Source: Terebella lapidaria (Eukaryota; Annelida; Polychaeta; Terebellida; Terebellidae). Taken from it: 64,000 nt of DNA. Shown here in pieces: positions 31,194 to 52,900 of this stretch. Where the stretch lies: contig OX424564.1 of NCBI GenBank assembly GCA_949152475.1, positions 744,001-808,000 of the forward strand. Reading direction: 5' to 3'. The notes beneath the pieces are model-generated. The model searched no databases. It saw only the letters and a list, made by a program, of their open reading frames with translations, and was not told where the DNA came from. The position numbers were made by a program, and so were the translations under genes. Numbering within the stretch: position 1 is the stretch's first letter; each line of letters begins with the position of its first letter.

Positions 31194-31362
31194 TTTGTTT
31201 TTTGCCGAACACCACCATGAATCGACTGTGGCCAATTTCTTCTGAATTTCCATCCAATTTTCACCAATTTCATGTTTTTGGCACATACGTGTGCATAATA
31301 GAGATTGCTCAACGTGCATGCATGACCACACATATAAATTGTCTTATTTTCGTACTGCTGAT

Positions 31363-31482
31363 GTCTACGACCATACCACGTTGAAAGCACCAGTTCTCGT
31401 CTGATCACTGAAGTTAAGCAACGTAGGGCCTGGTTAGTACTTGGATGAGTGACCGCCTGGAAATACCGGGTGTTGTAGACTT
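31363..31482 (+). rRNA. 5S rRNA copy 3
   Basis: Full length; two G-to-A changes in the box C region ('gatgagtgacc' and 'ctggaaat'). Confidence 0.95.
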
Positions 31483-31651
31483 TTTGTTTTTTGCTGAACA
31501 CCACCATGAATCGACTGTGGCCAATTTCTTCTGAATTTCCATCCAATTTTCACCAATTTCATGTTTTTGGCACATACGTGTGCATAATAGAGATTGCTCA
31601 ACGTGCATGCATGACCACACATATAAATGGTCTTATTTTCGTACTGCTGAT

Positions 31652-31771
31652 GTCTACGACCATACCACGTTGAAAGCACCAGTTCTCGTCTGATCACTGA
31701 AGTTAAGCAACGTAGGGCCTGGTTAGTACTTAGATGGGTGACCGCCTGGGAATACCGGGTGTTGTAGACTT
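31652..31771 (+). rRNA. 5S rRNA copy 4
   Basis: Full length; one change in box C ('acttagatggg'). Confidence 0.95.
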
Positions 31772-31940
31772 TTTGTTTTTTGCCGAACACCACCATGAAT
31801 CGACTGTGGCCAATTTCTTCTGAATTCCCATCCAATTTTCACCAATTTCATGTTTTTGGCACATACGTGTGCATAATAGAGATTGCTCAACGTGCATGCA
31901 TGACCACACATATAAATGGTGTTATTTTCGTACTGCTGAT

Positions 31941-32060
31941 GTCTACGACCATACCACGTTGAAAGCACCAGTTCTCGTCTGATCACTGAAGTTAAGCAAC
32001 GTCGGGCCTGGTTAGTACTTGGTTGGGTGACCGCCTGGGAATACCGGGTGTTGTAGACTT
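31941..32060 (+). rRNA. 5S rRNA copy 5
   Basis: Full length; two changes ('acgtcgggcc' and 'cttggttggg'). Confidence 0.95.
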
Positions 32061-32229
32061 TTTGTTTTTTGCCGAACACCACCATGAATCGACTGTGGCC
32101 AATTTCTTCTGAATTTCCATCCAATTTTCACCAATTTCATGTTTTTGGCACATACGTGTGCATAATAGAGATTGCTCAACGTGCATGCATGACCACACAT
32201 ATAAATGGTCTTATTTTCGTACTGATGAT

Positions 32230-32349
32230 GTCTACGACCATACCACGTTGAAAGCACCAGTTCTCGTCTGATCACTGAAGTTAAGCAACGTAGGGCCTGG
32301 TCAGTACTTGGATGGGTGACCGCCTGGGAATACCGGGTGTTGTAGACTT
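32230..32349 (+). rRNA. 5S rRNA copy 6
   Basis: Full length; one change, 'ctggtcagtac', shared with copy 7. Confidence 0.96.
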
Positions 32350-32518
32350 TTTGTTTTTTGCCGAACACCACCATGAATCGACTGTGGCCAATTTCTTCTG
32401 AATTTCCATCCAATTTTCACCAATTTCATGTTTTTGGCACATACGTGTGCATAATAGAGATTGCTCAACGTGCATGCATGACCACACATATAAATGGTCT
32501 TATTTTCGTACTGCTGAT

Positions 32519-32638
32519 GTCTACGACCATACCACGTTGAAAGCACCAGTTCTCGTCTGATCACTGAAGTTAAGCAACGTAGGGCCTGGTCAGTACTTGG
32601 ATGGGTGACCGCCTGGGAATACCGGGTGTTGTAGACTT
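32519..32638 (+). rRNA. 5S rRNA copy 7
   Basis: Full length; shares 'ctggtcagtac' with copy 6. The spacer that follows carries a 129-bp duplication. Confidence 0.96.
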
Positions 32639-32936
32639 TTCTTTTTTTGCCGAACACCACCATGAATCGACTGTGGCCAATTTCTTCTGAATTTCCATCC
32701 AATTTTCACCAATTTCATGTTTTTGGCACATACGTGTGCATAATAGAGATTGCTCAACGTGCATGCATGACCACACATATAAATGGTCTTATTTTCGTAC
32801 TGTGGCCAATTTCTTCTGAATTTCCATCCAATTTTCACCAATTTCATGTTTTTGGCACATACGTGTGCATAATAGAGATTGCTCAACGTGCATGCATGAC
32901 CACACATATAAATGGTCTTATTTTCGTACTGCTGAT

Positions 32937-33056
32937 GTCTACGACCATACCACGTTGAAAGCACCAGTTCTCGTCTGATCACTGAAGTTAAGCAACGTAG
33001 GGCCTGGTTAGTACTTGGATGGGTGACCGCCTGGGAATACCGGGTGTTGTAGACTT
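32937..33056 (+). rRNA. 5S rRNA copy 8
   Basis: Full length and identical to the array consensus, preceded by the spacer with the 129-bp duplication. Confidence 0.97.
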
Positions 33057-33224
33057 TTTGTTTTTGCCGAACACCACCATGAATCGACTGTGGCCAATTT
33101 CTTCTGAATTTCCATCCAATTTTCACTAATTTCATGTTTTTGGCACATACAGGTGCATAATAGAGATTGCTCAACGTGCATGCATGACCACACATATAAA
33201 TGGTCTTATTTTCGTACGGCTGAT

Positions 33225-33344
33225 GTCTACGACCATACCACGTTGAAAGCACCAGTTCTCGTCTGATCACTGAAGTTAAGCAACGTAGGGCCTGGTTAGT
33301 ACTTAAATGGGTGACCGCCTGGGAATGCCGGGTGTTGTAGACTT
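33225..33344 (+). rRNA. 5S rRNA copy 9
   Basis: Full length; three changes in box C and downstream ('acttaaatggg', 'gaatgccggg'). Confidence 0.95.
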
Positions 33345-33513
33345 TTTGTTTTTTGCCGAACACCACCATGAATCGACTGTGGCCAATTTCTTCTGAATTT
33401 CCATCCAATTTTCACCAATTTCATGTTTTTGGCACATACGTGTGCATAATAGAGATTGCTCAACGTGCATGCATGACCACACATATAAATGGTCTTATTT
33501 TCGTTCTGCTGAT

Positions 33514-33633
33514 GTCTACGACCATACCACGTTGAAAGCACCAGTTCTCGTCTGATCACTGAAGTTAAGCAACGTAGGGCCTGGTTAGTACTTGGATGGG
33601 TGACCGCCTGGGAAAACCGGGTGTTGTAGACTT
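33514..33633 (+). rRNA. 5S rRNA copy 10
   Basis: Full length; one change giving TGGGAAAACC, the same TGGGAAA seen at the transposon's left border. First copy with the 'cgttctgctg' spacer. Confidence 0.96.
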
Positions 33634-33802
33634 TTTGTTTTTTGCCGAACACCACCATGAATCGACTGTGGCCGATTTCTTCTGAATTTCCATCCAATTT
33701 TCACCAATTTCATGTTTTTGGCACATACGTGTGCATAATAGAGATTGCTCAACGTGCATGCATGACCACACATATAAATGGTCTTATTTTCGTTCTGCTG
33801 AT

Positions 33803-33922
33803 GTCTACGACCATACCACGTTGAAAGCACCAGTTCTCGTCTGATCACTGAAGTTAAGCAACGTAGGGCCTGGTTAGTACTTGGATGGGTGACCGCCTGG
33901 GAATACCGGGTGTTGTATACTT
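33803..33922 (+). rRNA. 5S rRNA copy 11
   Basis: Full length; one G-to-T change in the terminal helix ('gtatact'). Confidence 0.96.
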
Positions 33923-34061
33923 TTTGTTTTTTGCCGAACACCACCATGAATCGACTGTGGCCAATTTCTTCTGAATTTCCATCCAATTTTCACCAATTTC
34001 ATGTTTTTGGCACATACGTGTGCATAATAGAGATTGCTCAACGTGCATGCATGACCACACA

Positions 34062-34067
34062 TATAAA
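34062..34067 (+). promoter_or_regulatory. TATA-like element 30 bp upstream of 5S genes (representative copy)
   Basis: TATAAA in 'acatataaatggtc' begins exactly at -30 of copy 12 and recurs in the spacer before each gene from copy 2 on, except copy 21. A TATA-like box near -30 is known to help Pol III transcription of 5S genes in several invertebrates. Confidence 0.65.
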
Positions 34068-34091
34068 TGGTCTTATTTTCGTTCTGCTGAT

Positions 34092-34211
34092 GTCTACGAC
34101 CATACCACGTTGAAAGCACCAGTTCTCGTCTGATCACTGAAGTTAAGCAACGTAGGGCCTGGTTAGTACTTGGATGGGTGACCGCCTGGGAATACCGGGT
34201 GTTGTAGACTT
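34092..34211 (+). rRNA. 5S rRNA copy 12
   Basis: Matches the array consensus. GTCTAC at the start pairs with GTAGAC at the end. The family's internal control region is present: box A around AAGTTAAGCAACGT (gene bases 49-62) and box C around TGGATGGGTGACCGCCTG (80-97). Confidence 0.98.
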
Positions 34212-34221
34212 TTTGTTTTTT
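34210..34221 (+). terminator. Pol III T-tract terminator (representative copy)
   Basis: The gene end runs into TTTTT, then G, then TTTTTT. Two T tracts in a row follow nearly all 5S copies in the array. Runs of four or more T are the usual Pol III stop. Confidence 0.85.
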
Positions 34222-34380
34222 GCCGAACACCACCATGAATCGACTGTGGCCAATTTCTTCTGAATTTCCATCCAATTTTCACCAATTTCATGTTTTTGGC
34301 ACATACGTGTGCATAATAGAGATTGCTCAACGTGCATGCATGACCACACATATAAATGGTCTTATTTTCGTTCTGCTGAT

Positions 34381-34500
34381 GTCTACGACCATACCACGTT
34401 GAAAGCACCAGTTCTCGTCTGATCACTGAAGTTAAGCAACGTAGGGCCTGGTTAGTACTTGGATGGGTGACCGCCTGGGAATACCGGTTGTTGTAGACTT
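34381..34500 (+). rRNA. 5S rRNA copy 13
   Basis: Full length; one change ('ataccggttgttg'). Confidence 0.96.
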
Positions 34501-34669
34501 TTTGTTTTTTGCCGAACACCACCATGAATCGACTGTGGCCAATTTCTTCTGAATTTCCATCCAATTTTCACCAATTTCATGTTTTTGGCACATACGTGTG
34601 CATAATAGAGATTGCTCAACGTGCATGCATGACCACACATATAAATGGTCTTATTTTCGTTCTGCTGAT

Positions 34670-34789
34670 GTCTACGACCATACCACGTTGAAAGCACCAG
34701 TTCTCGTCTGATCACTGAAGTTAAGCAACGTAGGGCCTGGTTAGTACTTGGATGGGTGACCGCCTGGGAATACCGGGTGTTGTAGACTT
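34670..34789 (+). rRNA. 5S rRNA copy 14
   Basis: Identical to the array consensus. Confidence 0.98.
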
Positions 34790-34958
34790 TTTGTTTTTTG
34801 CCGAACACCACCATGAATCGACTGTGGCCAATTTCTTCTGAATTTCCATCCAATTTTCACCAATTTCATGTTTTTGGCACATACGTGTGCATAATAGAAA
34901 TTGCTCAACGTGCATGCATGACCACACATATAAATGGTCTTATTTTCGTTCTGCTGAT

Positions 34959-35078
34959 GTCTACGACCATACCATGTTGAAAGCACCAGTTCTCGTCTGA
35001 TCACTGAAGTTAAGCAACGTAGGGCCTGGTTAGTACTTTGATGGGTGACCGCCTGGGAATACCGGGTGTTGTATACTT
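34959..35078 (+). rRNA. 5S rRNA copy 15
   Basis: Full length; three changes ('accatgttg', 'gtactttgatg', 'gtatact'). Confidence 0.95.
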
Positions 35079-35247
35079 TTTGTTTTTTGCCGAACACCAC
35101 CATGAATCGACTGTGGCCAATTTCTTCTGAATTTCCATCCAATTTTCACCAATTTCATGTTTTTGGCACATACGTGTGCATAATAGAGATTACTCAACGT
35201 GCATGCATGACCACACATATAAATGGTCTTATTTTCGTTCTGCTGAT

Positions 35248-35367
35248 GTCTACGACCATACCACGTTGAAAGCACCAGTTCTCGTCTGATCACTGAAGTT
35301 AAGCAACGTAGGGCCTGGTTAGTACTTGGATGGGTGACCGCCTGAGAATACCGGGAGTTGTAGACTT
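35248..35367 (+). rRNA. 5S rRNA copy 16
   Basis: Full length; two changes ('cctgagaat' and 'cgggagttg'). Confidence 0.95.
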
Positions 35368-35536
35368 TTTGTTTTTTGCCGAACACCACCATGAATCGAC
35401 TGTGGCCAATTTCTTCTGAATTTCCATCCAATTTTCACCAATTTCATGTTTTTGGCACATACATGTGCATAATAGAGATTGCTCAACGTGCATGCATGAC
35501 CACACATATAAATGGTCTTATTTTCGTTCTGCTGAT

Positions 35537-35656
35537 GTCTACGACCATACCACGTTGAAAGCACCAGTTCTCGTCTGATCACTGAAGTTAAGCAACGTAG
35601 GGCCTGGTTAGTACTTGGATGGGTGACCGCCTGGGAATACCGGGTGTTGTAGACTT
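35537..35656 (+). rRNA. 5S rRNA copy 17
   Basis: Identical to the array consensus. Confidence 0.98.
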
Positions 35657-35825
35657 TTTGTTTTTTGCCGAACACCACCATGAATCGACTGTGGCCAATT
35701 TCTTCTGAATTTCCATCCAATTTTCACCAATTTCATGTTTTTGGCACATACGTGTGCATAATAGAGATTGCTCAACGTGCATGCATGACCACATATATAA
35801 ATGGTCTTATTTTCGTTCTGCTGAT

Positions 35826-35945
35826 GTCTACGACCATACCACGTTGAAAGCACCAGTTCTCGTCTGATCACTGAAGTTAAGCAACGTAGGGCCTGGTTAG
35901 TACTTGGATGGGTGACCGCCTGGGAATACCGGGTGTTGTAGACTT
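35826..35945 (+). rRNA. 5S rRNA copy 18
   Basis: Identical to the array consensus; the spacer before it has 'acatatataaatgg' in place of 'acacatataaatgg'. Confidence 0.98.
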
Positions 35946-36114
35946 TTTGTTTTTTGCCGAACACCACCATGAATCGACTGTGGCCAATTTCTTCTGAATT
36001 TCCATCCAATTTTCACCAATTTCATGTTTTTGGCACATACGTGTGCATAATAGAGATTGCTCAACGTGCATGCATGACCACACATATAAATGGTCTTATT
36101 TTCGTTCTGCTGAT

Positions 36115-36234
36115 GTCTACGACCATACCACGTTGAAAGCACCAGTTCTCGTCTGATCACTGAAGTTAAGCAACGTAGGGCCTGGTTAGTACTTGGATGG
36201 GTGACCGCCTGGGAATACCGGGTGTTGTAGACTT
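36115..36234 (+). rRNA. 5S rRNA copy 19
   Basis: Identical to the array consensus. Confidence 0.98.
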
Positions 36235-36403
36235 TTTGTTTTTTGCCGAACACCACCATGAATCGACTGTGGCCAATTTCTTCTGAATTTCCATCCAATT
36301 TTCACCAATTTCATGTTTTTGGCACATACGTGTGCATAATAGAGATTGCTCAACGTGCATGCATGACCACACATATAAATGGTCTTATTTTCGTTCTGCT
36401 GAT

Positions 36404-36523
36404 GTCTACGACTATACCACGTTGATAGCACCAGTTCTCGTCTGATCACTGAAGTTAAGCAACGTAGGGCCTGGTTAGTACTTGGATGGGTGACCACCTG
36501 GGAATACCGGGTGTTGTAGACTT
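36404..36523 (+). rRNA. 5S rRNA copy 20
   Basis: Full length; three changes ('acgactatacc', 'gttgatagc', 'gaccacctg'). Followed by a spacer shortened by 75 bp. Confidence 0.95.
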
Positions 36524-36617
36524 TTTGTTTTTTGCCGAACACCACCATGAATCGACTGTGGCCAATTTCTTCTGAATTTCCATCCAATTTTCACCAATTT
36601 CATTTCGATCTGCTGAT

Positions 36618-36737
36618 GTCTACGACCATACCACGTTGAAAGCACCAGTTCTCGTCTGATCACTGAAGTTAAGCAACGTAGGGCCTGGTTAGTACTTGGA
36701 TGGGTGACCGCCTGGGAATACCGGGTGTTGTAGACTT
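36618..36737 (+). rRNA. 5S rRNA copy 21
   Basis: The gene is consensus, but the shortened spacer before it lacks the TATAAAT motif that all other full-spacer copies carry 30 bp upstream. Confidence 0.97.
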
Positions 36738-36906
36738 TTTGTTTTTTGCCGAACACCACCATGAATCGACTGTGGCCAATTTCTTCTGAATTTCCATCCA
36801 ATTTTCACCAATTTCATGTTTTTGGCACATACGTGTGCATAATAGAGATTGCTCAACGTGCATGCATGACCACACATATAAATGGTCTTATTTTCGTTCT
36901 GCTGAT

Positions 36907-37026
36907 GTCTACGACCATACCACGTTGAAAGCACCAGTTCTCGTCTGATCACTGAAGTTAAGCAACGTAGGGCCTGGTTAGTACTTGGATGGGTGACCGC
37001 CTGGGAATACCGGGTGTTGTAGACTT
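36907..37026 (+). rRNA. 5S rRNA copy 22
   Basis: Identical to the array consensus. Confidence 0.98.
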
Positions 37027-37195
37027 TTTGTTTTTTGCCGAACACCACCATGAATCGACTGTGGCCGATTTCTTCTGAATTTCCATCCAATTTTCACCAA
37101 TTTCATGTTTTTGGCACATACGTGTGCATAATAGAGATTGCTCAACGTGCATGCATGACCACACATATAAATGGTCTTATTTTCGTTCTGCTGAT

Positions 37196-37296
37196 GTCTA
37201 CGACCATACCACGTTGAAAGCACCAGTTCTCGTCTGATCACTGAAGTTAAGCAACGTAGGGCCTGGTTAGTACTTGGATGGGTGACCGCCTGGGAA
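37196..37296 (+). pseudogene. 5S rRNA copy 23, cut by the transposon
   Basis: The first 101 bases of 5S are consensus, ending in GACCGCCTGGGAA. The transposon follows and the last 19 bases (ATACC-helix 3' part) are missing, so no complete 5S RNA can be made. Boxes A and C remain. Confidence 0.95.
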
Positions 37297-37297
37297 A
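37291..37297 (+). other. Left target-site sequence of the transposon, TGGGAAA
   Basis: The seven bases before the element are TGGGAAA, within the 5S gene (consensus TGGGAAT; TGGGAAA exists in copy 10). The seven bases after each element copy are TGGGACC. The shared TGGGA and the 7-bp length suggest a target-site duplication with later changes, or a tandem junction formed at slightly different 5S sequences. Confidence 0.55.
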
Positions 37298-37326
37298 GGC
37301 GAATGACCCCCCAAAGTCCTTATCCT
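37298..37326 (+). repeat. Left terminal inverted repeat of the transposon
   Basis: Starts GGCGAATGACCCCCCAAAGT and ends CTTATCCT. It matches the inverse of the right end at about 20 of 28 positions with one gap. It also resembles the inverse of 5S bases 75-95 (GGCGGTCACCCATCCAAGT). Confidence 0.65.
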
Positions 37327-38979
37327 GGTTGAGGACGATCACTATTAACAGGTGGCGCCAGGGGCGAAAGGAATCAGAGAAATTGTGTGTTCTTTCATGA
37401 TCAAATTTTGAGAGTTGTGGATGTGATTTATGAACTTAGTTTGTTGGAATCATATTATATGTGTCTTTTTTTCAAGTATGCTTTCAAGCTATTTCGTATG
37501 CATTCTGCGACTTAAAATAGTATATAATATTTGCTGTTCAGTGCATATTCAAGTATATTTTCCCGATCGAATTAACTACATTCGATATGTTTGCCTCTAT
37601 AGTGCAGGAGTAAGAAACTAACATATTATCATAGCATGTGTGAATGTGTTTCTGAATAAAATGCAATGCATTCATAATTGTTTATTTGTTTCCATGAAAA
37701 TCACTGTAATATCTATATTGCAATCCGGTAATATCATCATGAACTGAACTGAATTGCACATTCACAACAATTGGCTAAAAAAGGTCAACTAAAATAAACA
37801 AATCAAGAGAATGGTGTAAAATGATAAATGTCAATAATTAACAATATAATATGTAAATAAAATAAAATGGTATGTAAACACAAACTAACCTCTCCAGTTC
37901 AAGGTAAAGAGATTCAAAGTATACCAGCAGAATCGGACAAAATACTCAACAATTATAAGTAAATGGTATGTAAACACAAGATTCAAAGTATACCGGTACA
38001 ATCGGACAAATTAATCATCAATTATAAGTGAATGGTATGTAAACACAAATCAAGTTCTCTTGACATTAACCGCAAAGTATCCCTGATAATACACATCTTT
38101 TCATGTACATTGTATAACACGTGAATATATCTGAAAGAATACTTTTGACATAATCTCAAAACAAATTGATATAATTTCACATTTGATATATATTCTCATA
38201 TCCATCAATTTGACATGAGAGCTAAATGCATTATATCAGTATACAAAATAATTCAACCGCAAAGGTTACAAACTGATCAATGCATGTTTACTTTTATGCC
38301 TCATGTGACAACTACATGCAATTTATAGTGTTATACCATCTACAAACCTATGTTAATGGAAAATTCATTGCACATGAATTAATTTGAACACAAAAACTTC
38401 ACTAACATATTCTCACCTGATAACATATGATCACATGCATTGAAAACTAATTGAAGCTGAAAGTCTTCCACAAAAAGGTCATGAACAAATCCATATGTGT
38501 ACACATGCACTACATGGACAAAATAAATGTGATAGACCATTTCTACTACATGGGTCTCCAAATAGCTCACTGAGCTGTGCATGAAACACTCATTGAATAC
38601 AAATTACTATTTTCATAGTATCTAGATCATTCAAAGAACTATCAAACTGCCTAGATCATTCAAGGAACTGATGAACAAATATGCAAAAATTCATTGAATA
38701 CAAATGAATTCAACCACCAATGATATTCCCTTTATCAGACAAAATATATTCGTTTCATAGTGTCATGTTTATCCATAGCACATGTTGGACCAGATGAAGC
38801 ATGGAACATTGATTGAATACATTGAGTTTACCACAAAAGTCAGAAACAGACATCTACATGTATACATGTCTTATCCCACAAAATACATGTGATAGATAGT
38901 GTCACAACTCTAGAAATATACACATTAAATTGGTTAAGAACAACACATACAAGTATGGTGACAATGCTAATCAAACACT
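37327..38979 (-). other. 3' flank of the transposase gene, copy A
   Basis: AT-rich, with only short frames. It holds a near-duplicate segment ('ggtatgtaaacacaa' at about 37870, 37966 and 38033, with 'attcaaagtatacc' between) and no recognisable second gene. The same sequence recurs in copies B and C. It is probably 3' UTR and element backbone. Confidence 0.65.
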
Positions 38980-40316
38980 CTATTCCCCTGTTCCCTTTTG
39001 ACGACTGAGTTCTGCATCCACGACTTCCTTGAAATGCTCGTAGCTATTGTAAATGTTTCCGAAGCCAGGCGTAAGAGATCTACCAGTAGTGGGGCAAAAG
39101 GTGAAAATTTTCTGATGGCTCCCCTCAGTTTTTGCTTTTGATGGGGTGTATCGTTTCCTGAGACCTCCACATTTGGCTACTTTGCAGGCAGCACAGGGTT
39201 TGGACGACTTGTCCGGAAGCACTCTCTTCAGTTGAGGGGTTGTAGGGGGCATAGTTGGAACGAAGCATGATCCTCCCTGTGGTGTGATTGCAGGCTGGAA
39301 CTTGATCGATGGAGCCTGTGGTTGCAAAGGAACTACCATCATGACTGGAGCACTCGAGGGCAGGGGATTGGTTGATCCTGAAGTGGATGGCTCTGGCTCC
39401 TCTACGTCCAGCCTCCGCTTCTCACGCTGTCTTTTCCCAGCAACATGAGGTATTGTATCATACTGAACCTGAAGACGGTCGGGTGGTGGCAAAACCTGGG
39501 GAAGTGTTGGAGCTTCTGCTATTTCCTCTTGAGAGATGACCTTACGATGCCTCGTCACCTTCGGCAGCACGGTGGCAGTCAGGTTAGCCTTCTTCTCCTC
39601 CTTCGCAATAAACATGCTGATGGACTTAGCATTGATGTTGGGCAAAGGGATACCTAGCTTGCACAGTTTAGGATCATCTTGGACACGGTGGAGAATCCTC
39701 TTGTACTGTGCCCGTATGTAAGTTGTGGCCTTCGAGGGTGACCTGGACATGTTGGCAGGAGGGCGATTGTTCAATATCTTGATAACCAGATAGAGAAGGC
39801 GAGACTCTTCGTTGATTTGCGCAGCCTGAGGATATCTCCTCCACCCAAACTTTGTTTTCTGTGCAGCGCTCTTTTGTGGAGAATCCGGACCAAGGCAGCG
39901 ACCAAACAAAGTGTAACCCCATTTTGATTCATACTGTCGCATGAAATTTTTGCTGGACTTGTCCACATCATGCAGGGCATCTGCAGCAGCAGAAATCTTC
40001 TCTCTCAGTGAGGGTGACACGATGTAGCGGTCAGTGTCATCTGATAGCTCTATGAGCAGGACCGCCAAGTTCTCTACTTCTGAAAATCCAGGCAGATGCA
40101 GGTGTCTGGGTGACATCAAAACATCCTCCAAGGCAGGACTGGTCTCCTCTGTCACATGCTCCAGTGATGTCAAGACAGCATGATCCTGGTTGATGGCATC
40201 CAGAGGACTGTCCTGATCTGGTGAGTCGCTTGCATCATTAATGTCAACACCTTCATCCTCATCCTCATCCTCTTCATCATCAGGTTCCTCCTGTTCTTGT
40301 GACTGTTCTTGATCAA
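38980..40316 (-). CDS. Transposase exon 10: acidic, Pro/Ser-rich tail with C-terminal Cys cluster
   Basis: Begins VDQEQSQEQEEPDDEEDEDE and passes through KRQREKRRLDVEEPEPSTS, a basic cluster that may be a nuclear signal. It ends with a CAACKVAKC zinc-knuckle-like cluster and FCPTTGRSL. An upstream in-frame Met exists before the acceptor, but splicing from exon 9 (GAGAAAG|gtatta to ccacag|TTGATC) gives the continuous frame. Confidence 0.75.
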
Positions 40317-43300
40317 CTGTGGTATAAGCAAAGTATTTCAAATTGTAACATTGTTGTGGCAAACAACAATCCATGATAAGTAATTATCACATGTTTTGCA
40401 TGATACTCTGAACATGTGACCTCACGTAGAAGTATTGAATATATATAGCTCTGGCAACGGATGACAAGTATCTAATACCTTTCTCGATGTAGTAGTTGCG
40501 GGGACTGAACTGTGTGGACTGGCAAAAAGCATATTCCACACCAAGGAGCTCCTCCTCATCTGGGTTGTCATAAGACTCAGGGTGTGGCAGGGGGGCAGAG
40601 AAGTTTGGCTCGAACAAATGCTCCTTCCCGAACAACACTTCTGCCTGCTGGTTGAGACGCTGGATCTGACGAGGATCAACGCAGGATGTAACCCTGCCAC
40701 GACCACCAGCAACTCGTAGCGATTCCATCCTCGCATTCCACTGCACAGCGAATGCGATGAGGTACACCTGGAATATACAGTATTTATATATGATAAAACT
40801 GAATATTTCACGGAAAATACAGTTATTTGTACAAAGTGCAAAATTTGCAACAATGTGGTAGATATCTCTGGGAAGTTTTGAATAATTTTGCATTTCTCCC
40901 AGTATTCAATACATAATTGTTACTCTGTCATATTGTCAATTGATATATGTAACAGCTCATAACTTCACTAGTTAACTAGGAATTTTTTGATTTTGATAGT
41001 ACCTGGAACTGCATAATGCCACATTTTTTTGATGGAACAGCATTGTACATGTGTGAGTGTAGGCCCTCCAATGAGTTGCTCCCTCTCCGGCACTTGTACT
41101 TGTTCAGGATGATGCCATTTAGATTGACCTCCTTCGTAGCGATGTACAGGGTAACACCGGGCGGGTCCTAGGAAGAAGATAACTCAGATGTATCCGAGGA
41201 AAAATACTTTTGTTGTTGTTTGGTATAAGGTGTGTTTCTACTGCTGCTTACCTGCATACAACTGAGATGTTTGCATGCTGTGGCCCAGTAAGTATCGACA
41301 GCTTCAGGTGATCTGAACAAGGGGATGCCATCAATGTCCAACCCAGCCGGCCCTTTGAACTCCTCCAGGATAGCTTCAACAGCACTAGCAGTTTCCTGAA
41401 AAAACCGCCAATAAATGTTCTTTTTTTATTTCAGAATAGATACTTCCAGTCAGCTCATATCACGATAGGAACTGAACTGACCTCGACCCCACGGGTAACA
41501 CGCCGGACATACGTCTTGACCTGGTATGGCTTCAGGAATGTGATCATTTCACCATCTGTGTACTGCGCATACAGTTCCGGTTTCCCCCGACGAACGGCTT
41601 CGGTGAGCTGTTGCATGTCTCTGCCATTGTAAGCCAGGACAGCTCCTGCCATGGCACTCATGAACAAGCCATACTTGGCATGGGTTTGCTTGATGATGAC
41701 AGTGTCCCATCGGTGCAACCAATGGCGGATATCCAATCGAACAACCATGCCTTCCTGGACCCATTCATCGAACAATCCTTCCAAATAGGAGCTCCCCCCA
41801 TCTCTGAAAAATGCAGAATTATCCCGTTTCTAAATATAACTTCAAACAAATCAAAAGGAACATACATTTGAAGAAACTCTTCAATCACATTCTACCTGCC
41901 ATTTACCTGCAACAGTTGCAATCTGTATACAGCACTTTTGGGGCACCCTGATTTGCACGCTGAAAGCGGGCAACAAGTCCACGGGCCAAACGCTTGTAGG
42001 ACTCTTCAGACTCAGACGCCACGACAACAGTTGTTAAGAACTGACCCCACTCGTTGAGAACACTTGTGATGTACTGCATCGTACCTTGTCCGTCACCTGA
42101 GATTTTCTTTAGGATCTGGAAAAATTATAATAGAGTTCTTATGAGTAATTGCGTTAAATAATTTCATTGTTTATAGATCAATCAAAACTTGAAAAAGTAG
42201 AATTTAATTGCTTGAAATATTAAACACCTGTTTTGTTCCATCTATGCAAAGGATCTCTCCTGTCATGCTGAGAATGGAAGCGCGATAATCTGGGAGCTTC
42301 TCCATCTCCATGATCATGTGGGCTCGGCGTAGCGTACGAGCTGATGGCAATGCAGTCTGGGCAATGGGAGGGGTGTATGTTCCAGCCGGCTTGATGAAGG
42401 ACAGGATCCCACGCTGAGCGCTGTTGTTGGCAGTGTGGGCTTCATACAACAAGGTTTGGTAGAGGTCCCGGCGCTCTGTGTACCACTCATCATGGCCCTG
42501 CTTTATCAGCCTCTGTACCTTGCTCATCGACACTGAATTGACTCTGTCATTCAAAAGAACAACTACGCTCTTGTCCACAGCTCGCTTTCCACACAGGACA
42601 ACAGGAAACATGTTGCGCACAGCGGGAGCGAGTATAGACAGAATCTTGGGACTTGTAGCCAACCAGATGTACTGTTGCTGTTCTTTTGCCCAGACGTCTG
42701 TGCCATCATCGATGTCGTCTGATGTGTTGTCTGCAGCCTGTCTCATCTTCATGCATGATGCACATGTGAGGCGTTCTGTTAGTAGTGTGTAATGATATTG
42801 AGTTCCACAAACCTGCCTTGCAAACGATGCATAGCCTTTCTTGTCCAAGTAACTACCAGAAGGGGCTGGACAGTTTGAGTTGGGACAACGGACCTTGGCC
42901 TCCATGACACCAACAGGACGCCAGAAGAAAACTGGTGTTGTGAAGAACCCCAACATGTTTGGGACTGATCCTCTGATGGTTGAAGGGACTGGAGGGGGAT
43001 TGAACTCCATTTTTGGCTTGAAGATTTTCCTTGCCACTGTTTGTCCTTTGCTGTTCTTGTATGGCCTTGCTGGCTGGAATAAACCATATTCCTCACTTTC
43101 CTTCAGCCATCTGATGTTGGGTGCAGCTATGCCTTGTGAATAGGATGGTGGCTCATCCCAAAACTTCTGCCATCCTTCAAGGACCATGGTCCCATCCACA
43201 CTTGATGACGTGGACGGTTCGACAGTGGAGGCAGATCTACAAAAGTTGGATTCACATAAGTATTTATCATATATCTATTCTATGTATTCCTTCATACCCA

Positions 43301-45080
43301 TCCATAGTTTTGTTTAGCCGGATGATAATTGAAACATAAAGTATCAACTTGAGTATTTACACTTTAGATAAAAACATTACACCACATGTAGTACACACCC
43401 ATGGCTTGAATGTTCAATGGCAGGTTCTCCGCTTGTAACTGTGGCTGGAATGAGATTTCCCAAAGTTGTCAGCTGGGTTGACACTGCCACTTCTGACTCA
43501 TCCAGGATTCCCTCTATTCATAAAAAATACCTCAATGCAATGAACATGTGACACAAAGAATTCAGGCAAAAAAAAAGCAACAAGAGAAATTCAGGCAAAG
43601 AATGTAAGATTTGAAATGCTTAAAATGGTGCATTTCTATTTTTTTTCATAATAAATACATTGTCGAAATATTCAGCAAAATTTAGCAAAAATTCTTTCAG
43701 AAAGACATGTCATTGGAGAATTAGCTGAGGGGCTGAGAATGATCACAGCAAGAATGTGCAGTGTGATGCCTTAAACATGTTTCACCACTCGAGGTCGTGT
43801 AAGAGGGGAAGTGCAAGGTCATCAAGAAATCAAGTATAAGGTGATATTTTGAAGCAGTGATAGGTTATCAAGCACAAGAAAATGAAGCCAATCAGTGCGG
43901 GTCCACTATTTCTATCTGTCACTGATAAGAAATTATATGTAGTTCAATATTCCTGGTGAAGTCAGTTATAAATTTTGACAATAATTTTCCCAAAATACAC
44001 AAAAAGAAACAGTGATATTATACTGAAAAAGCAATTATACCATCACCTAAGAAGAACATATATAAGCGCCAGAAAAAGCACCTTATTGACATCAAGTACA
44101 CACAAACAACAAATATTCTCACCATGACATGAATAGTATGTAGTGTGTAGGCTGAGAAAAAAAAGTATTTTATATTTTATCACATGTTATTTCACTATGA
44201 ATGTTGACATTATTCTTCTCCAAAAACCAATTTGAAATCAGTTTGTATGTTAAGTTCATATGCACCTGCAACACTCAGCAGTTCAGCATCCGCAACATAT
44301 CCAGCATCAATTTCACACTGAGCTGTTTTCTCTTCCAGCTTCTGTGAATATGGCAAAATAGTCAAAATGTAATATCAATGACATTTGTGCAACCTGTATT
44401 TCAGCAATCCTAATGACAAAGTAAGTGAGAACAAATACCAATTGTATTGATGTTGCTTCTATATTTAGAGCACAGTTTCATATGAGGAGAAAATGATTTC
44501 TTTTATTTAGAATATAATTTAGAACCAACCAATACAACAATTAAGCTCTCACCTTCAACCTTCTGTCTAGATGAACAGAGACAACAGGGAACTCTTTGAC
44601 AAGTTCCAATAGAGTCTCCTTCTGCCATCTGAGATGATCAATTTTCTCGCCTTTTTGACAGAATTCAGCAAGGAGCCACACTACCCAGCCCACATCATTT
44701 TCCAAAAGCCACTTGAAAGTTTGGCCTGCATATCGTCCAAACGTTATCATGAGCTCTAATTTCCAGAGATCATGTCCCACATTCTTAGCAGCTTTCTCAG
44801 CCGTGTTCCTGTTCATCCAAATTGGTTCAACCAGTATGTTGGGCGCTTTTGCAACATCTTTTGCAGCTTTGGTACTTGTTAGCTTTGCCTCATCAGGTCT
44901 GTAGAGTGGAATGACTGGATATCGATGTTGGTTTTGATGTTGCTCCAGATGCTGCTTCAGAGTAAAAGTTTTATCACAGATATCACATTTGAGGGCTTTG
45001 ATAGGAGAATGAGTTTTTAAGTGACGAGTCAGGTTCGACTTTTGGCTGAATGTTTTCTTGCATATACTACACTGGTGCAT
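38980..45080 (-). CDS. DDE-type transposase with zinc fingers, copy A (1,397 aa, 10 exons)
   Basis: Exons in order of translation: 44553-45080, 44266-44341, 43399-43513, 42228-43236, 41907-42115, 41482-41803, 41252-41395, 41003-41167, 40479-40767, 38980-40316. All nine introns have GT-AG ends and phases agree; the sum is 4,194 nt. Layout: two C2H2 fingers (C4-C7-H20-H24, C32-C35-H48-H52); a conserved FGRYAGQTFKWLLENDVGW block (114-132); a Cys-rich DUF6729-like domain with Cys357, 362, 383, 398 and 401; a catalytic core with candidate D572 (CIDGTK), D641 (YTDCNCC), D670 (RLDIRHW) and E835 (SNSLEG); an acidic Asp/Glu run after about 953; and a C-terminal Cys cluster (1327, 1330, 1335, 1360). 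It probably binds element ends and catalyses transposition. No breaks seen. Start chosen at the Met before finger 1; upstream is an acceptor-like site, so a 5' UTR exon is likely. Confidence 0.85.
41003..42115 (-). CDS. Transposase exons 5-8: RNase H-like catalytic core
   Basis: Exons 41907-42115, 41482-41803, 41252-41395 and 41003-41167 code for residues 577-856. They carry KKISGDGQGTMQYITSVLNE, KVLYTDCNCC (D641), RLDIRHWLHRW (D670, H673), TRGVEETASAVEAILEEF, DPPGVTLYIATKEVNLNGI and RRGSNSLEGLHSHM (E835). Spacing of about 69 residues and then 194 residues between candidate D, D and E, with a helical insert before E, fits the hAT/MuDR/P/Kolobok/Dada range of DDE enzymes. Which Asp is the second ligand is not settled. 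Confidence 0.7.
42228..43236 (-). CDS. Transposase exon 4: DUF6729-like Cys-rich domain leading to the first catalytic Asp
   Basis: 1,009 nt, residues about 240-576. It contains TPVFFWRPVGVMEAKVRCP, a C-x4-C ... C ... C-x2-C set, a long helical part (LYQTLLYEAHTANN) and ends ILCIDGTKQ with D572. The pattern FFWRP...CP..C and SMTG.IL.IDGTK follows the DUF6729 family. The start is an AG acceptor, not a methionine; an upstream GTG-like or internal Met start is not needed. Confidence 0.8.
44553..45080 (-). CDS. Transposase exon 1: two C2H2 zinc fingers and FGxxAGQTFxWLLEN block
   Basis: Codes for residues 1-176. Both fingers are C-x2-C-x12-H-x3-H, with a linker of seven residues (SPIKALK). The block around residues 113-132 resembles the N-terminal part of large DUF6729-type proteins known from fish genomes. 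The donor is AAG|gtgaga at 44552. The fingers are good candidates for recognising the element's ends or the 5S target. Confidence 0.85.
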
Positions 45081-46832
45081 CTTCCCAATTATTTCATTCC
45101 TCCTGAAAAGGAAAAGATAAATAAATGAAATAACCAACTGCCATACAAGATAATGATCACGAAATTGTATTAATTACATACAACATTTGATACAATGTGT
45201 TAAGAAATGAAAAATTAAACATAAGTTATTGACAGATATCTTTTCCAACAATTGATTACATTATGATAACAATAATGTCAACTTCTCACAGTGTTATTTA
45301 TCATTAGCGGGAAATATCATTCGAAAGGTAAAACTAGTCTGATACTGAAAATATCAACAAATTAATAAACCATTGCTGCAATGAAAACAATGTTGAATGA
45401 AAACATCATCCATGACTTCTAGTGTTAGCCACTAGGTATTGTTGCCTTCATTAACACATTCCAAATTTTGGTAAAATTACAGCATACCTGATACATCAAA
45501 TCATGATTTCTGTTGTCAGTGCTTGTGGAGCATTAGTGTTTAACCATCTGCGGACAAGCACCCACACGCCAGACTGATGCTTGTTTTCACCTGCACAAAT
45601 CTGTACAAAACAAAGGTATCACACATAAATTATCACTTATTTATAACACAATCCATTTGGTTGGGCACACATGGTCGTTGACATTTTCATTACTTATTAG
45701 CACAACATAATTATGTATTTCACTCCTATGCACGAATTAAAAACAATGTATTTCCAATCTCCTTTTCAGTTTACACTGCCTCAACAGTGACCATCAATTT
45801 ATTATTATCCAAATTCTATTGCTAAAGATAATGAAAACAATTATAATACAACGAAACGCTACCTTCCAGAATCAGCATGATGTGATGATCCATTTTATTC
45901 ATTTCATTGTCGAATACAGATGAGAAAATGAATCTGATGATGTTGAAGACTTCCATTCATGATAAACAGCTTCGGTGTGGTCTGTTCTGTGAACGACTGG
46001 GTTTACACTTGACTTGGCTCCAATTACTGTACCATTCACTCAGGTGCACTATAATTCCAGATCATCAGATGCCTGTATGTACAGAAAAATCATGGGCTAT
46101 ACTCATGCATGCATCATATCAATTACCAACGCTTGGAATATCAAGTTAATGTTGAATAAATGCAACTACAACCATGCGCGTGTACGTTATGACAGTATAC
46201 GGCCCAAGTGGGCCTAAAGTTTGCACACAAGTTTTGAACAAATGCCTGATACTGCCGCAGTGACTGTATTTTGTGTATTTATTATTCCATCTGTAGGAAA
46301 TAGCTACCATAACTCACTGTCATACTTGTAGTGATAGTTTGCTGAAGGAAAATAAGCACTGAATTCGAGTTTGTTTTCTCTGGATCTGAAACCGGAAGTG
46401 GGGTTTTGTATGGAGAGACTTTAGGGCAATCAGTATTTTTCATTGTATTTTTGTTGTCCAAGTGTTGCAAACGCAGAATTTACGTGAAATATGATGCACC
46501 AACACTTAATTTTCACCAATAGAATATTTATTGGACAATAATTTATCAATAAACAACGCCTGCAGTGAAAATCATACACCCCAAAACGCTGGAATGAAGA
46601 CGCTAGTGCTGTTCCATACAATTGCACTCGATCTGTGTTTTGGTGCAACCTGACCAATTCGAATCATAACGTAACGATATTTACTCTTAAAAAGAGTTTG
46701 AATGATGGACATATCATGTTATAATAGCTTCCTAATACCTTTTGATGCATATATGTGTCAAATATTGAAGAAACAGTTAATTGAATGCATGATGCTCTCT
46801 TCATGGAAGCTGCCATTTTTAAGCTAAATATT
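45081..46832 (-). other. Upstream region of the transposase gene, copy A
   Basis: No conserved frame. On the minus strand an acceptor-like 'cttttcag' lies about 30 bp before the start codon, and possible 5' UTR exon material is at about 45490-45600 (flanked by AG and GT). Remaining sequence is AT-rich. The promoter is expected here or at the CCAAT-bearing palindrome beyond it. Confidence 0.45.
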
Positions 46833-46926
46833 CAGCCAATCATTGAGCCCTGTTGAGCAACTGCCAGCCAATCATTGAGCGCCGTTGAGCAGGACTGAAC
46901 GCTCAACAGGGCTCAATGATTGGCTG
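46833..46926. promoter_or_regulatory. 26-bp perfect palindrome with CCAAT motifs near the right end, copy A
   Basis: CAGCCAATCATTGAGC plus ten more bases (46833-46858) is the exact inverse of 46901-46926. A near copy of the left arm lies between them (46865-46890). Each arm carries a CCAAT box. The structure lies 37 bp from the right end of the element, upstream of the minus-strand gene, so it may be promoter, transposase-binding subterminal repeat, or both. Confidence 0.6.
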
Positions 46927-46935
46927 GTTGAGCAG

Positions 46936-46963
46936 AGGATATGTACTTGGAGGTGCAACTGCC
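46936..46963 (-). repeat. Right terminal inverted repeat of the transposon
   Basis: On the plus strand it ends GTACTTGGAGGTGCAACTGCC. This is strikingly like 5S box C, GTACTTGGATGGGTGACCGCC, which is what stands directly before the insertion point in the target. Confidence 0.65.
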
Positions 46964-46970
46964 TGGGACC
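46964..46970 (+). other. 7-bp junction between transposon copies A and B, TGGGACC
   Basis: Exactly seven bases separate the right end of copy A from the left end of copy B. The same seven lie between B and C (56637-56643). TGGGA is shared with the 5S target site. Confidence 0.7.
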
Positions 46971-49900
46971 GGCGAATGACCCCCCAAAGTCCTTATCCTG
47001 GTTGAGGACGATCACTATTAACAGGTGGCGCCAGGGGCGAAAGGAATCAGAGAAATTGTGTGTTCTTTCATGATCAAATTTTGAGAGTTGTGGATGTGAT
47101 TTATGAACTTAGTTTGTTGGAATCATATTATATGTGTCTTTTTTTCAAGTATGCTTTCAAGCTATTTCGTATGCATTCTGCGACTTAAAATAGTATATAA
47201 TATTTGCTGTTCAGTGCATATTCAAGTATATTTTCCCGATCGAATTAACTACATTCGATATGTTTGCCTCTATAGTGCAGGAGTAAGAAACTAACATATT
47301 ATCATAGCATGTGTGAATGTGTTTCTGAATAAAATGCAATGCATTCATAATTGTTTATTTGTTTCCATGAAAATCACTGTAATATCTATATTGCAATCCG
47401 GTAATATCATCATGAACTGAACTGAATTGCACATTCACAACAATTGGCTAAAAAAGGTCAACTAAAATAAACAAATCAAGAGAATGGTGTAAAATGATAA
47501 ATGTCAATAATTAACAATATAATATGTAAATAAAATAAAATGGTATGTAAACACAAACTAACCTCTCCAGTTCAAGGTAAAGAGATTCAAAGTATACCAG
47601 CAGAATCGGACAAAATACTCAACAATTATAAGTAAATGGTATGTAAACACAAGATTCAAAGTATACCGGTACAATCGGACAAATTAATCATCAATTATAA
47701 GTGAATGGTATGTAAACACAAATCAAGTTCTCTTGACATTAACCGCAAAGTATCCCTGATAATACACATCTTTTCATGTACATTGTATAACACGTGAATA
47801 TATCTGAAAGAATACTTTTGACATAATCTCAAAACAAATTGATATAATTTCACATTTGATATATATTCTCATATCCATCAATTTGACATGAGAGCTAAAT
47901 GCATTATATCAGTATACAAAATAATTCAACCGCAAAGGTTACAAACTGATCAATGCATGTTTACTTTTATGCCTCATGTGACAACTACATGCAATTTATA
48001 GTGTTATACCATCTACAAACCTATGTTAATGGAAAATTCATTGCACATGAATTAATTTGAACACAAAAACTTCACTAACATATTCTCACCTGATAACATA
48101 TGATCACATGCATTGAAAACTAATTGAAGCTGAAAGTCTTCCACAAAAAGGTCATGAACAAATCCATATGTGTACACATGCACTACATGGACAAAATAAA
48201 TGTGATAGACCATTTCTACTACATGGGTCTCCAAATAGCTCACTGAGCTGTGCATGAAACACTCATTGAATACAAATTACTATTTTCATAGTATCTAGAT
48301 CATTCAAAGAACTATCAAACTGCCTAGATCATTCAAGGAACTGATGAACAAATATGCAAAAATTCATTGAATACAAATGAATTCAACCACCAATGATATT
48401 CCCTTTATCAGACAAAATATATTCGTTTCATAGTGTCATGTTTATCCATAGCACATGTTGGACCAGATGAAGCATGGAACATTGATTGAATACATTGAGT
48501 TTACCACAAAAGTCAGAAACAGACATCTACATGTATACATGTCTTATCCCACAAAATACATGTGATAGATAGTGTCACAACTCTAGAAATATACACATTA
48601 AATTGGTTAAGAACAACACATACAAGTATGGTGACAATGCTAATCAAACACTCTATTCCCCTGTTCCCTTTTGACGACTGAGTTCTGCATCCACGACTTC
48701 CTTGAAATGCTCGTAGCTATTGTAAATGTTTCCGAAGCCAGGCGTAAGAGATCTACCAGTAGTGGGGCAAAAGGTGAAAATTTTCTGATGGCTCCCCTCA
48801 GTTTTTGCTTTTGATGGGGTGTATCGTTTCCTGAGACCTCCACATTTGGCTACTTTGCAGGCAGCACAGGGTTTGGACGACTTGTCCGGAAGCACTCTCT
48901 TCAGTTGAGGGGTTGTAGGGGGCATAGTTGGAACGAAGCATGATCCTCCCTGTGGTGTGATTGCAGGCTGGAACTTGATCGATGGAGCCTGTGGTTGCAA
49001 AGGAACTACCATCATGACTGGAGCACTCGAGGGCAGGGGATTGGTTGATCCTGAAGTGGATGGCTCTGGCTCCTCTACGTCCAGCCTCCGCTTCTCACGC
49101 TGTCTTTTCCCAGCAACATGAGGTATTGTATCATACTGAACCTGAAGACGGTCGGGTGGTGGCAAAACCTGGGGAAGTGTTGGAGCTTCTGCTATTTCCT
49201 CTTGAGAGATGACCTTACGATGCCTCGTCACCTTCGGCAGCACGGTGGCAGTCAGGTTAGCCTTCTTCTCCTCCTTCGCAATAAACATGCTGATGGACTT
49301 AGCATTGATGTTGGGCAAAGGGATACCTAGCTTGCACAGTTTAGGATCATCTTGGACACGGTGGAGAATCCTCTTGTACTGTGCCCGTATGTAAGTTGTG
49401 GCCTTCGAGGGTGACCTGGACATGTTGGCAGGAGGGCGATTGTTCAATATCTTGATAACCAGATAGAGAAGGCGAGACTCTTCGTTGATTTGCGCAGCCT
49501 GAGGATATCTCCTCCACCCAAACTTTGTTTTCTGTGCAGCGCTCTTTTGTGGAGAATCCGGACCAAGGCAGCGACCAAACAAAGTGTAACCCCATTTTGA
49601 TTCATACTGTCGCATGAAATTTTTGCTGGACTTGTCCACATCATGCAGGGCATCTGCAGCAGCAGAAATCTTCTCTCTCAGTGAGGGTGACACGATGTAG
49701 CGGTCAGTGTCATCTGATAGCTCTATGAGCAGGACCGCCAAGTTCTCTACTTCTGAAAATCCAGGCAGATGCAGGTGTCTGGGTGACATCAAAACATCCT
49801 CCAAGGCAGGACTGGTCTCCTCTGTCACATGCTCCAGTGATGTCAAGACAGCATGATCCTGGTTGATGGCATCCAGAGGACTGTCCTGATCTGGTGAGTC

Positions 49901-52900
49901 GCTTGCATCATTAATGTCAACACCTTCATCCTCATCCTCATCCTCTTCATCATCAGGTTCCTCCTGTTCTTGTGACTGTTCTTGATCAACTGTGGTATAA
50001 GCAAAGTATTTCAAATTGTAACATTGTTGTGGCAAACAACAATCCATGATAAGTAATTATCACATGTTTTGCATGATACTCTGAACATGTGACCTCACGT
50101 AGAAGTATTGAATATATATAGCTCTGGCAACGGATGACAAGTATCTAATACCTTTCTCGATGTAGTAGTTGCGGGGACTGAACTGTGTGGACTGGCAAAA
50201 AGCATATTCCACACCAAGGAGCTCCTCCTCATCTGGGTTGTCATAAGACTCAGGGTGTGGCAGGGGGGCAGAGAAGTTTGGCTCGAACAAATGCTCCTTC
50301 CCGAACAACACTTCTGCCTGCTGGTTGAGACGCTGGATCTGACGAGGATCAACGCAGGATGTAACCCTGCCACGACCACCAGCAACTCGTAGCGATTCCA
50401 TCCTCGCATTCCACTGCACAGCGAATGCGATGAGGTACACCTGGAATATACAGTATTTATATATGATAAAACTGAATATTTCACGGAAAATACAGTTATT
50501 TGTACAAAGTGCAAAATTTGCAACAATGTGGTAGATATCTCTGGGAAGTTTTGAATAATTTTGCATTTCTCCCAGTATTCAATACATAATTGTTACTCTG
50601 TCATATTGTCAATTGATATATGTAACAGCTCATAACTTCACTAGTTAACTAGGAATTTTTTGATTTTGATAGTACCTGGAACTGCATAATGCCACATTTT
50701 TTTGATGGAACAGCATTGTACATGTGTGAGTGTAGGCCCTCCAATGAGTTGCTCCCTCTCCGGCACTTGTACTTGTTCAGGATGATGCCATTTAGATTGA
50801 CCTCCTTCGTAGCGATGTACAGGGTAACACCGGGCGGGTCCTAGGAAGAAGATAACTCAGATGTATCCGAGGAAAAATACTTTTGTTGTTGTTTGGTATA
50901 AGGTGTGTTTCTACTGCTGCTTACCTGCATACAACTGAGATGTTTGCATGCTGTGGCCCAGTAAGTATCGACAGCTTCAGGTGATCTGAACAAGGGGATG
51001 CCATCAATGTCCAACCCAGCCGGCCCTTTGAACTCCTCCAGGATAGCTTCAACAGCACTAGCAGTTTCCTGAAAAAACCGCCAATAAATGTTCTTTTTTT
51101 ATTTCAGAATAGATACTTCCAGTCAGCTCATATCACGATAGGAACTGAACTGACCTCGACCCCACGGGTAACACGCCGGACATACGTCTTGACCTGGTAT
51201 GGCTTCAGGAATGTGATCATTTCACCATCTGTGTACTGCGCATACAGTTCCGGTTTCCCCCGACGAACGGCTTCGGTGAGCTGTTGCATGTCTCTGCCAT
51301 TGTAAGCCAGGACAGCTCCTGCCATGGCACTCATGAACAAGCCATACTTGGCATGGGTTTGCTTGATGATGACAGTGTCCCATCGGTGCAACCAATGGCG
51401 GATATCCAATCGAACAACCATGCCTTCCTGGACCCATTCATCGAACAATCCTTCCAAATAGGAGCTCCCCCCATCTCTGAAAAATGCAGAATTATCCCGT
51501 TTCTAAATATAACTTCAAACAAATCAAAAGGAACATACATTTGAAGAAACTCTTCAATCACATTCTACCTGCCATTTACCTGCAACAGTTGCAATCTGTA
51601 TACAGCACTTTTGGGGCACCCTGATTTGCACGCTGAAAGCGGGCAACAAGTCCACGGGCCAAACGCTTGTAGGACTCTTCAGACTCAGACGCCACGACAA
51701 CAGTTGTTAAGAACTGACCCCACTCGTTGAGAACACTTGTGATGTACTGCATCGTACCTTGTCCGTCACCTGAGATTTTCTTTAGGATCTGGAAAAATTA
51801 TAATAGAGTTCTTATGAGTAATTGCGTTAAATAATTTCATTGTTTATAGATCAATCAAAACTTGAAAAAGTAGAATTTAATTGCTTGAAATATTAAACAC
51901 CTGTTTTGTTCCATCTATGCAAAGGATCTCTCCTGTCATGCTGAGAATGGAAGCGCGATAATCTGGGAGCTTCTCCATCTCCATGATCATGTGGGCTCGG
52001 CGTAGCGTACGAGCTGATGGCAATGCAGTCTGGGCAATGGGAGGGGTGTATGTTCCAGCCGGCTTGATGAAGGACAGGATCCCACGCTGAGCGCTGTTGT
52101 TGGCAGTGTGGGCTTCATACAACAAGGTTTGGTAGAGGTCCCGGCGCTCTGTGTACCACTCATCATGGCCCTGCTTTATCAGCCTCTGTACCTTGCTCAT
52201 CGACACTGAATTGACTCTGTCATTCAAAAGAACAACTACGCTCTTGTCCACAGCTCGCTTTCCACACAGGACAACAGGAAACATGTTGCGCACAGCGGGA
52301 GCGAGTATAGACAGAATCTTGGGACTTGTAGCCAACCAGATGTACTGTTGCTGTTCTTTTGCCCAGACGTCTGTGCCATCATCGATGTCGTCTGATGTGT
52401 TGTCTGCAGCCTGTCTCATCTTCATGCATGATGCACATGTGAGGCGTTCTGTTAGTAGTGTGTAATGATATTGAGTTCCACAAACCTGCCTTGCAAACGA
52501 TGCATAGCCTTTCTTGTCCAAGTAACTACCAGAAGGGGCTGGACAGTTTGAGTTGGGACAACGGACCTTGGCCTCCATGACACCAACAGGACGCCAGAAG
52601 AAAACTGGTGTTGTGAAGAACCCCAACATGTTTGGGACTGATCCTCTGATGGTTGAAGGGACTGGAGGGGGATTGAACTCCATTTTTGGCTTGAAGATTT
52701 TCCTTGCCACTGTTTGTCCTTTGCTGTTCTTGTATGGCCTTGCTGGCTGGAATAAACCATATTCCTCACTTTCCTTCAGCCATCTGATGTTGGGTGCAGC
52801 TATGCCTTGTGAATAGGATGGTGGCTCATCCCAAAACTTCTGCCATCCTTCAAGGACCATGGTCCCATCCACACTTGATGACGTGGACGGTTCGACAGTG

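Follow-up and report, generated by a model that had tools for sequence, protein, structure and literature searches.

Dada elements are transposons specialised for insertion into repeated small RNA genes, and Mutsu is a non-LTR retrotransposon. Published Dada elements are 4,666-10,979 bp in length, and Dada target site duplications are 6-7 bp; in Dada-U6 and Dada-U1 terminal inverted repeats are absent, the subterminal inverted repeats (9-bp and 7-bp) resemble the target at the same distance, and tandem Dada-U1 copies are separated by nothing except a 6-bp duplication (Kojima and Jurka 2013, PMC3706591). The Dada-U6_DR transposase (1,402 aa, 11 exons) carries C389/C394/C429/C432, the catalytic residues D567/D635/E811 with a DxxH after the second D, and C1359/C1362/H1372/C1381 (PMC3706591). 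The same paper names Mutsu as an element that specifically targets 5S rRNA genes. Dada-5S families, with the target ATTCCCAGGCGGTC, have been published in a paper that reports them from ray-finned fish only (Kojima 2022, PMC8869645; e.g. Dada-5S-A_CaAu) and cluster with Dada-U1. A literature search on transposons in 5S found nothing relevant beyond these two papers, and the 5S sequence used as a literature text query gave no match.

In the window analysed here, a stretch of 64,000 nt, the last gene of a 5S rRNA array is interrupted by a 9,667-bp element. We consider it very probable that the element is a DNA transposon of the Dada superfamily, apparently autonomous, which occupies the published Dada-5S site with its transposase opposite to the 5S, and that the motif-based proposal set out below accounts for its targeting and its array. 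The original prediction knew of no DNA transposon described at this 5S site, a claim overturned by the fish families (PMC8869645); the locus is a further example of a phenomenon already published. The array and the element are laid out as follows.

30797..37291, + strand, 5S rRNA gene array (23 Rfam matches, among them the first gene, altered at its 5' end, and the last, interrupted one)
37196..37291, + strand, interrupted 5S gene, 5' 96 nt
37292..37297, + strand, left spacer GGGAAA, presumed target duplication (GGGAAT in intact 5S)
37298..46964, element copy 1, 9,667 bp, with a minus-strand transposase
46965..46970, + strand, spacer GGGACC between copies 1 and 2
46971..56637, element copy 2, body identical to copy 1
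56638..56643, + strand, spacer GGGACC between copies 2 and 3
56644..62481, element copy 3, ended by the assembly gap
62482..62681, assembly gap, 200 N
62682..63831, piece of a further, slightly different copy (1141/1151 identical to 40679-41829, last bases included)

The 23 Rfam 5S matches span 30784-37308 with a repeat length of mostly 289 bp, and the array is homogenised: of the 21 genes between the first and the last, 14 depart from their consensus at one position or none. The 5S gene does not appear to be of vertebrate type, and the host is probably not a fish. A Pfam scan aimed at placing the host, run to E 0.1 on 5 of a set of 8 reading frames, gave hits for none of the 5. The last gene, starting at 37196, keeps the consensus over its first 101 positions and then loses it, being intact as far as GCCTGGGAA before element sequence takes over. 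The junction reads GCCT-GGGAAA-GGCGAATGACC where the intact gene has GCCT-GGGAAT-ACCGGG, and the insertion point lies after nt 96. In the single 5S insertion (n=1 junction) visible in the window, the site is the one published as the Dada-5S target, ATTCCCAGGCGGTC, the complement of GACCGCCTGGGAAT. The predicted passage from consensus 5S into a large element thus stands, with a body of 9,667 rather than 9,666 bp.

The element does not stand alone: beyond the confirmed 5S junction three copies lie head to tail, the third cut by 200 N, with a tandem period of 9,673 bp (the body plus a 6-bp spacer). A single insertion with its right flank at 46970, as originally supposed, was rejected; at 46971 the next, identical copy begins. 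Copies 1 and 2 differ at 7 of 9,673 positions, every one in the 5S part and spacer preceding copy 1, and copies 2 and 3 at none of 5,866 compared. A rearrangement near 62481 was likewise rejected, the assembly gap lying there; the piece beyond it leaves element sequence from about 41812, within the intron preceding exon 6 of the gene described below. The junctions hold 6-bp spacers, GGGAAA on the 5S side and GGGACC between copies, neither exactly GGGAAT; a second 5S flank is absent from the window. A 17-base query for the 3' half of the broken gene, with up to 3 mismatches, gave 22 matches in the window, all at or before 37025, and GGGAAA is therefore a presumed target duplication. Compared with fish Dada-5S, the locus has a presumably non-vertebrate 5S, three head-to-tail copies and the spacer GGGACC, and the likeness is one of site rather than of compared sequence.

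The predicted inverted ends proved to be an imperfect subterminal repeat, with no terminal inverted repeat seen at the element ends.

37309..37326, + strand, left arm of the subterminal inverted repeat in copy 1, 11 nt from the spacer (copy 2 equivalent, 46982-46999)
46936..46953, + strand, right arm of the subterminal inverted repeat in copy 1, 11 nt from the spacer; 5S-like at about the same distance
46940..46964, + strand, last 25 nt of the element, 18/25 identical, ungapped, to the 25 nt of 5S preceding the insertion site

The two 18-nt arms match at 14 positions, each offset by 11 nt from its end, and 5 of 20,000 control pairs do as well. The right end resembles the 5S target in register: its 18/25 identity was reached in none of 100,000 shuffles and is the best among all forward positions in the element, while the right arm matches 5S at 13/18 (equalled by 13 of 20,000 controls). 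The left end is weakly similar (12/18, equalled by 105 of 20,000), and both complete copies terminate in the 5S-like motif. When stretches of the element are aligned locally, with gaps, to the whole 5S gene, the ends do not stand out: interior stretches score up to 31 against 28 for the right end, and 1,015 of 1,922 stretches reach the score of the left end. The repeats are longer and less exact than those of Dada-U6 and Dada-U1, and their target is 5S. Shared with those two families (PMC3706591) are target-like subterminal repeats, absent terminal inverted repeats, 6-bp spacers and introns, and with Dada-U1 also tandem copies; the 9,667-bp length is consistent with Dada because it falls inside the published range.

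The predicted DDE-type gene is present on the strand opposite to the 5S.

38980..45102, - strand, transposase gene of copy 1, exon limits read from splice sites without a transcript
45102-44553, 44341-44266, 43513-43399, 43236-42228, 42115-41907, - strand, transposase exons 1-5
41803-41482, 41395-41252, 41167-41003, 40767-40479, 40316-38980, - strand, transposase exons 6-10

Read from the ATG at 45080, the 10 exons give an open predicted protein of 1,397 aa, with the catalytic core divided among several exons. Chosen by eye so as to follow the published order, the catalytic residues are D572, D641, D670-I-R-H (the DxxH after the second D) and E835, flanked by an N-terminal CCCC finger (C357/C362/C398/C401) and a putative C-terminal CCHC (C1327/C1330/H1353/C1360), also read by eye, so that the order of finger, D-D-(DxxH)-E and finger matches published Dada transposases. 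Protein size, motif order and, for residues chosen in this way, most spacings are as in Dada-U6_DR: the CCCC spacing is 5/36/3 against 5/35/3 and the D-D distance 69 against 68, whereas C4-to-D1 is 171 against 135, D2-to-E 194 against 176, and the CCHC, alike in order and place, is spaced 3/23/7 against 3/10/9. The DxxH and CCHC patterns taken alone are weak evidence, because loose versions recur at 1065 and at residue 4, respectively. In Pfam the spliced protein passed the cut-offs for DUF6729 (E 1.9e-22) and C2H2 fingers alone, with no transposase family among the matches, and a literature search on DUF6729 found nothing. Like Mutsu, the element would have its multicopy home in 5S genes, but Mutsu is a retrotransposon, and Pfam found no reverse transcriptase in the six main reading frames of the element or in the spliced protein. 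The published Dada-5S target is written as the 5S complement, and on our reading of that orientation the transposase here likewise runs opposite to the 5S. Searches for relatives by peptide patterns gave no match in viral contigs and 5 and 8 matches in prokaryotic genome contigs, none upheld by tblastn; a 5S-junction pattern had 0 matches in viral contigs. Transposase motifs, end structure and exact insertion point together support well the prediction of a Dada-like element at a 5S target site.

The anatomy of the locus, the open gene, the insertion point, the mutual likeness of the two ends, the likeness of the right end to the target, and the tandem copies are direct observations, for which we propose a common basis. 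The transposase most likely binds one motif, AGTACTTGGATGG in 5S, which recurs imperfectly 11 nt in from each end of the element; element ends and target would be alike because the one motif is bound in both. Cutting beside the motif would be staggered by 6 bp. The right end and spacer appear to recreate a 5S-like site, and a new copy could therefore land against a resident one, so that the head-to-tail array may have formed by such landing or by unequal exchange inside the 5S array. The chances are about even that unequal crossing-over or amplification in the 5S locus built the array by itself, the 5S-like right end being simply the element's own binding site; this concerns the array step and leaves the Dada identity untouched. 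The absence of body differences among the copies, GGGACC at both internal junctions and the homogenised 5S array favour such amplification, but Dada-U1A_DR adjoins Dada-U1B_DR in a published tandem of two different families (PMC3706591), and tandem insertion does occur in the superfamily, as this pair cannot come from amplifying one unit.

It is improbable that the junction or the tandem copies are an assembly artefact, whether a chimeric join or one copy multiplied by the assembler. The bodies are letter-identical, and the sequence stops within copy 3 at the gap and restarts within another copy, as for an unresolved repeat; against this, the break coincides exactly with the site published for Dada-5S (PMC8869645), a position that a join made at random should not hit, the 5S-like motif closes each of the two complete copies, and tandem Dada copies with 6-bp spacers are already published (PMC3706591). 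These points support the junction more than the copy number. That the element is a DDE transposon from a superfamily other than Dada (MuDR, P, hAT, Kolobok or a related group) which landed in 5S by chance is most improbable: the C/DxxH motif is common to these superfamilies (PMC3706591) and the likeness to Dada is to published descriptions rather than directly compared sequence, but the CCCC spacing and D-D distance close to those of Dada-U6_DR, the subterminal instead of terminal repeats and the exact Dada-5S site all point to Dada.

With the element read as a Dada transposon, a more far-reaching account can be offered only tentatively, namely that this is Dada-5S in a non-fish animal, that about 25 bp of its right end are a copy of the 5S target, which makes the element its own preferred target, growing head-to-tail arrays in the 5S locus, and that the site has been kept since before vertebrates or was reached twice independently. 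If the host is not a fish, a site-specific lineage reported only from ray-finned fish in the paper that named it (PMC8869645) extends to another animal group. The apparently intact transposase gene and target-like ends offer a direct way into the question of how Dada locates a single position within a single gene family, and the same element into that of why Dada copies line up in tandem.

The 5S rRNA genes (23 Rfam matches between 30784 and 37308) lie at a start-to-start distance of 289 bp for most repeats. The last gene, starting at 37196, is interrupted by the element as originally predicted: the consensus is kept over its first 101 positions and is then lost, with GCCT-GGGAAA-GGCGAATGACC replacing the GCCT-GGGAAT-ACCGGG of an intact gene. 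The 3' half of the broken gene is absent after the junction, since all 22 window matches to this half lie at or before 37025. Two repeats of odd length (32519-32937, 418 bp, and 36404-36618, 214 bp) are signs of unequal exchange inside the 5S array. At the opposite edge the first 5S gene (~30797) has no normal 5' end, and reading frames in 28223-30825 continue directly into it; by eye these resemble a DIRS-type reverse transcriptase, and the two of them that were run against Pfam gave no match. Elsewhere, a 134-bp unit forms two long tandem arrays within 3193-8357 (3193-4786 and 5915-8357).

The original prediction of a single insertion holds for the element within the 5S gene and fails from 46971 onwards, where a second head-to-tail copy begins, followed by a third:

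37292-37297, spacer GGGAAA before copy 1
37298-46964, element copy 1
45102-38980, minus strand, transposase gene of copy 1, ten exons by splice-site reading
46971-56637, element copy 2
56644-62481, element copy 3, interrupted by 200 N
62682-64000, post-gap copy fragment (62682-63831) and the sequence it joins

Self-comparison of the window yields a 15,539-bp match (99.955%) at an offset of 9,673 bp, and within the window there are exactly three occurrences of the element's left end and two of its right end. Compared base for base, copies 1 and 2 disagree at 7 of 9,673 positions, all within 37279-37297 (the 5S part and spacer preceding copy 1), and copies 2 and 3 at none of 5,866. Beyond the gap, 62682-63831 is identical to the element at 1141 of 1151 positions and carries exons 6 to 8 and a portion of exon 9, with the assembly gap lying beyond the latter. 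In the intron that immediately precedes exon 6 this post-gap copy gives way to unrelated sequence; it is either truncated or fused to a different locus. Copy number is the point most exposed to assembly error, and the 5S junction the least, because it is located at a published site.

The exon limits of the transposase gene are predicted from splice sites alone; the spliced product has 1,397 residues and no internal stops. Above the Pfam cut-off are N-terminal C2H2 fingers and DUF6729, the latter at E 1.9e-22 with its best stretch at residues 317-408. Residues selected by eye to suit the published Dada order comprise a CCCC finger (357/362/398/401), D572, D641 and E835 with DxxH at 670, in keeping with the DDE-type gene originally predicted, and a CCHC finger (1327/1330/1353/1360); the likeness is one of motif order and spacing, not of aligned sequence. 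As described, the Dada-U6_DR transposase has 1,402 residues in 11 exons, with CCCC at 389/394/429/432, DDE at 567/635/811 with DxxH, and CCHC at 1359/1362/1372/1381 (PMC3706591). The CCCC spacing (5/36/3 here) and the distance between the first two aspartates (69 here) are close to it, whereas finger to first D (171 against 135), second D to E (194 against 176) and the CCHC spacing differ.

Dada-U6 and Dada-U1 are described as having no terminal inverted repeat and short subterminal ones that recur in the target gene at equal distance (PMC3706591). The layout here is similar: the inverted ends previously noted are indeed inverted, but lie 11 nt inside each end (CCCCAAAGTCCTTATCCT on the left; CCTCCAAGTACATATCCT, reverse complement, on the right) and not at the termini. 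The arms agree at 14 of 18 positions, equalled by 5 of 20,000 control pairs from the element interior. The last 25 nt of the element match the 25 nt of 5S preceding the site at 18 positions, ungapped, a score reached by none of 100,000 shuffles and the highest among all forward element positions; an 18-nt version scores 13, equalled by 13 of 20,000 controls. The left end matches more weakly (12/18; 105 of 20,000 controls equally good). When the complete 5S gene is aligned locally with gaps, the ends do not stand out (right end 28, interior stretches up to 31; 1,015 of 1,922 stretches attain the left end's score), and the case for an end-5S relationship therefore depends on how far each match sits from the site, a distance common to the ends and 5S. 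Separately, copy 1 has a strong inverted repeat (46833-46927; 26-nt perfect arms 42 nt apart, with an overlapping 27-nt pair at 93%) ~40 nt inward of its right end.

The insertion site, GACCGCCTGGGAAT, is the complement of ATTCCCAGGCGGTC, the target of Dada-5S families published from ray-finned fish and grouped with Dada-U1 (Kojima 2022, PMC8869645), so that a 5S-site DNA transposon is not undescribed, as had been thought. Duplicated target bases are described as sometimes replaced in Dada insertions (PMC8869645), which may be why the spacers read GGGAAA before copy 1 and GGGACC between copies instead of GGGAAT. The tandem habit is shared with Dada-U1, whose tandem copies are reported with the 6-bp duplication alone between them (Kojima and Jurka 2013, PMC3706591). 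Motif order, subterminal layout, site and tandem habit thus agree with the Dada-like assignment. Since site, anatomy and tandem habit match published Dada (PMC8869645, PMC3706591), all three are already known, and we see no basis for a new kind of element.

We propose that the transposase would recognise a motif common to 5S and its own element ends, make a cut staggered by 6 bp next to it and join at that point. Right end plus spacer would restore a 5S-like site, so that a new copy could insert adjoining a resident one and build the array. The other route is unequal exchange within the 5S array; identical copies and identical spacers do not discriminate between the two.

Finally, the 5S gene of the window appears unlike vertebrate 5S, and the host is therefore probably not a fish. 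In the account given in PMC8869645, Dada-5S is reported solely from ray-finned fish; if the host is not a fish, the range of Dada-5S would be widened past fish.
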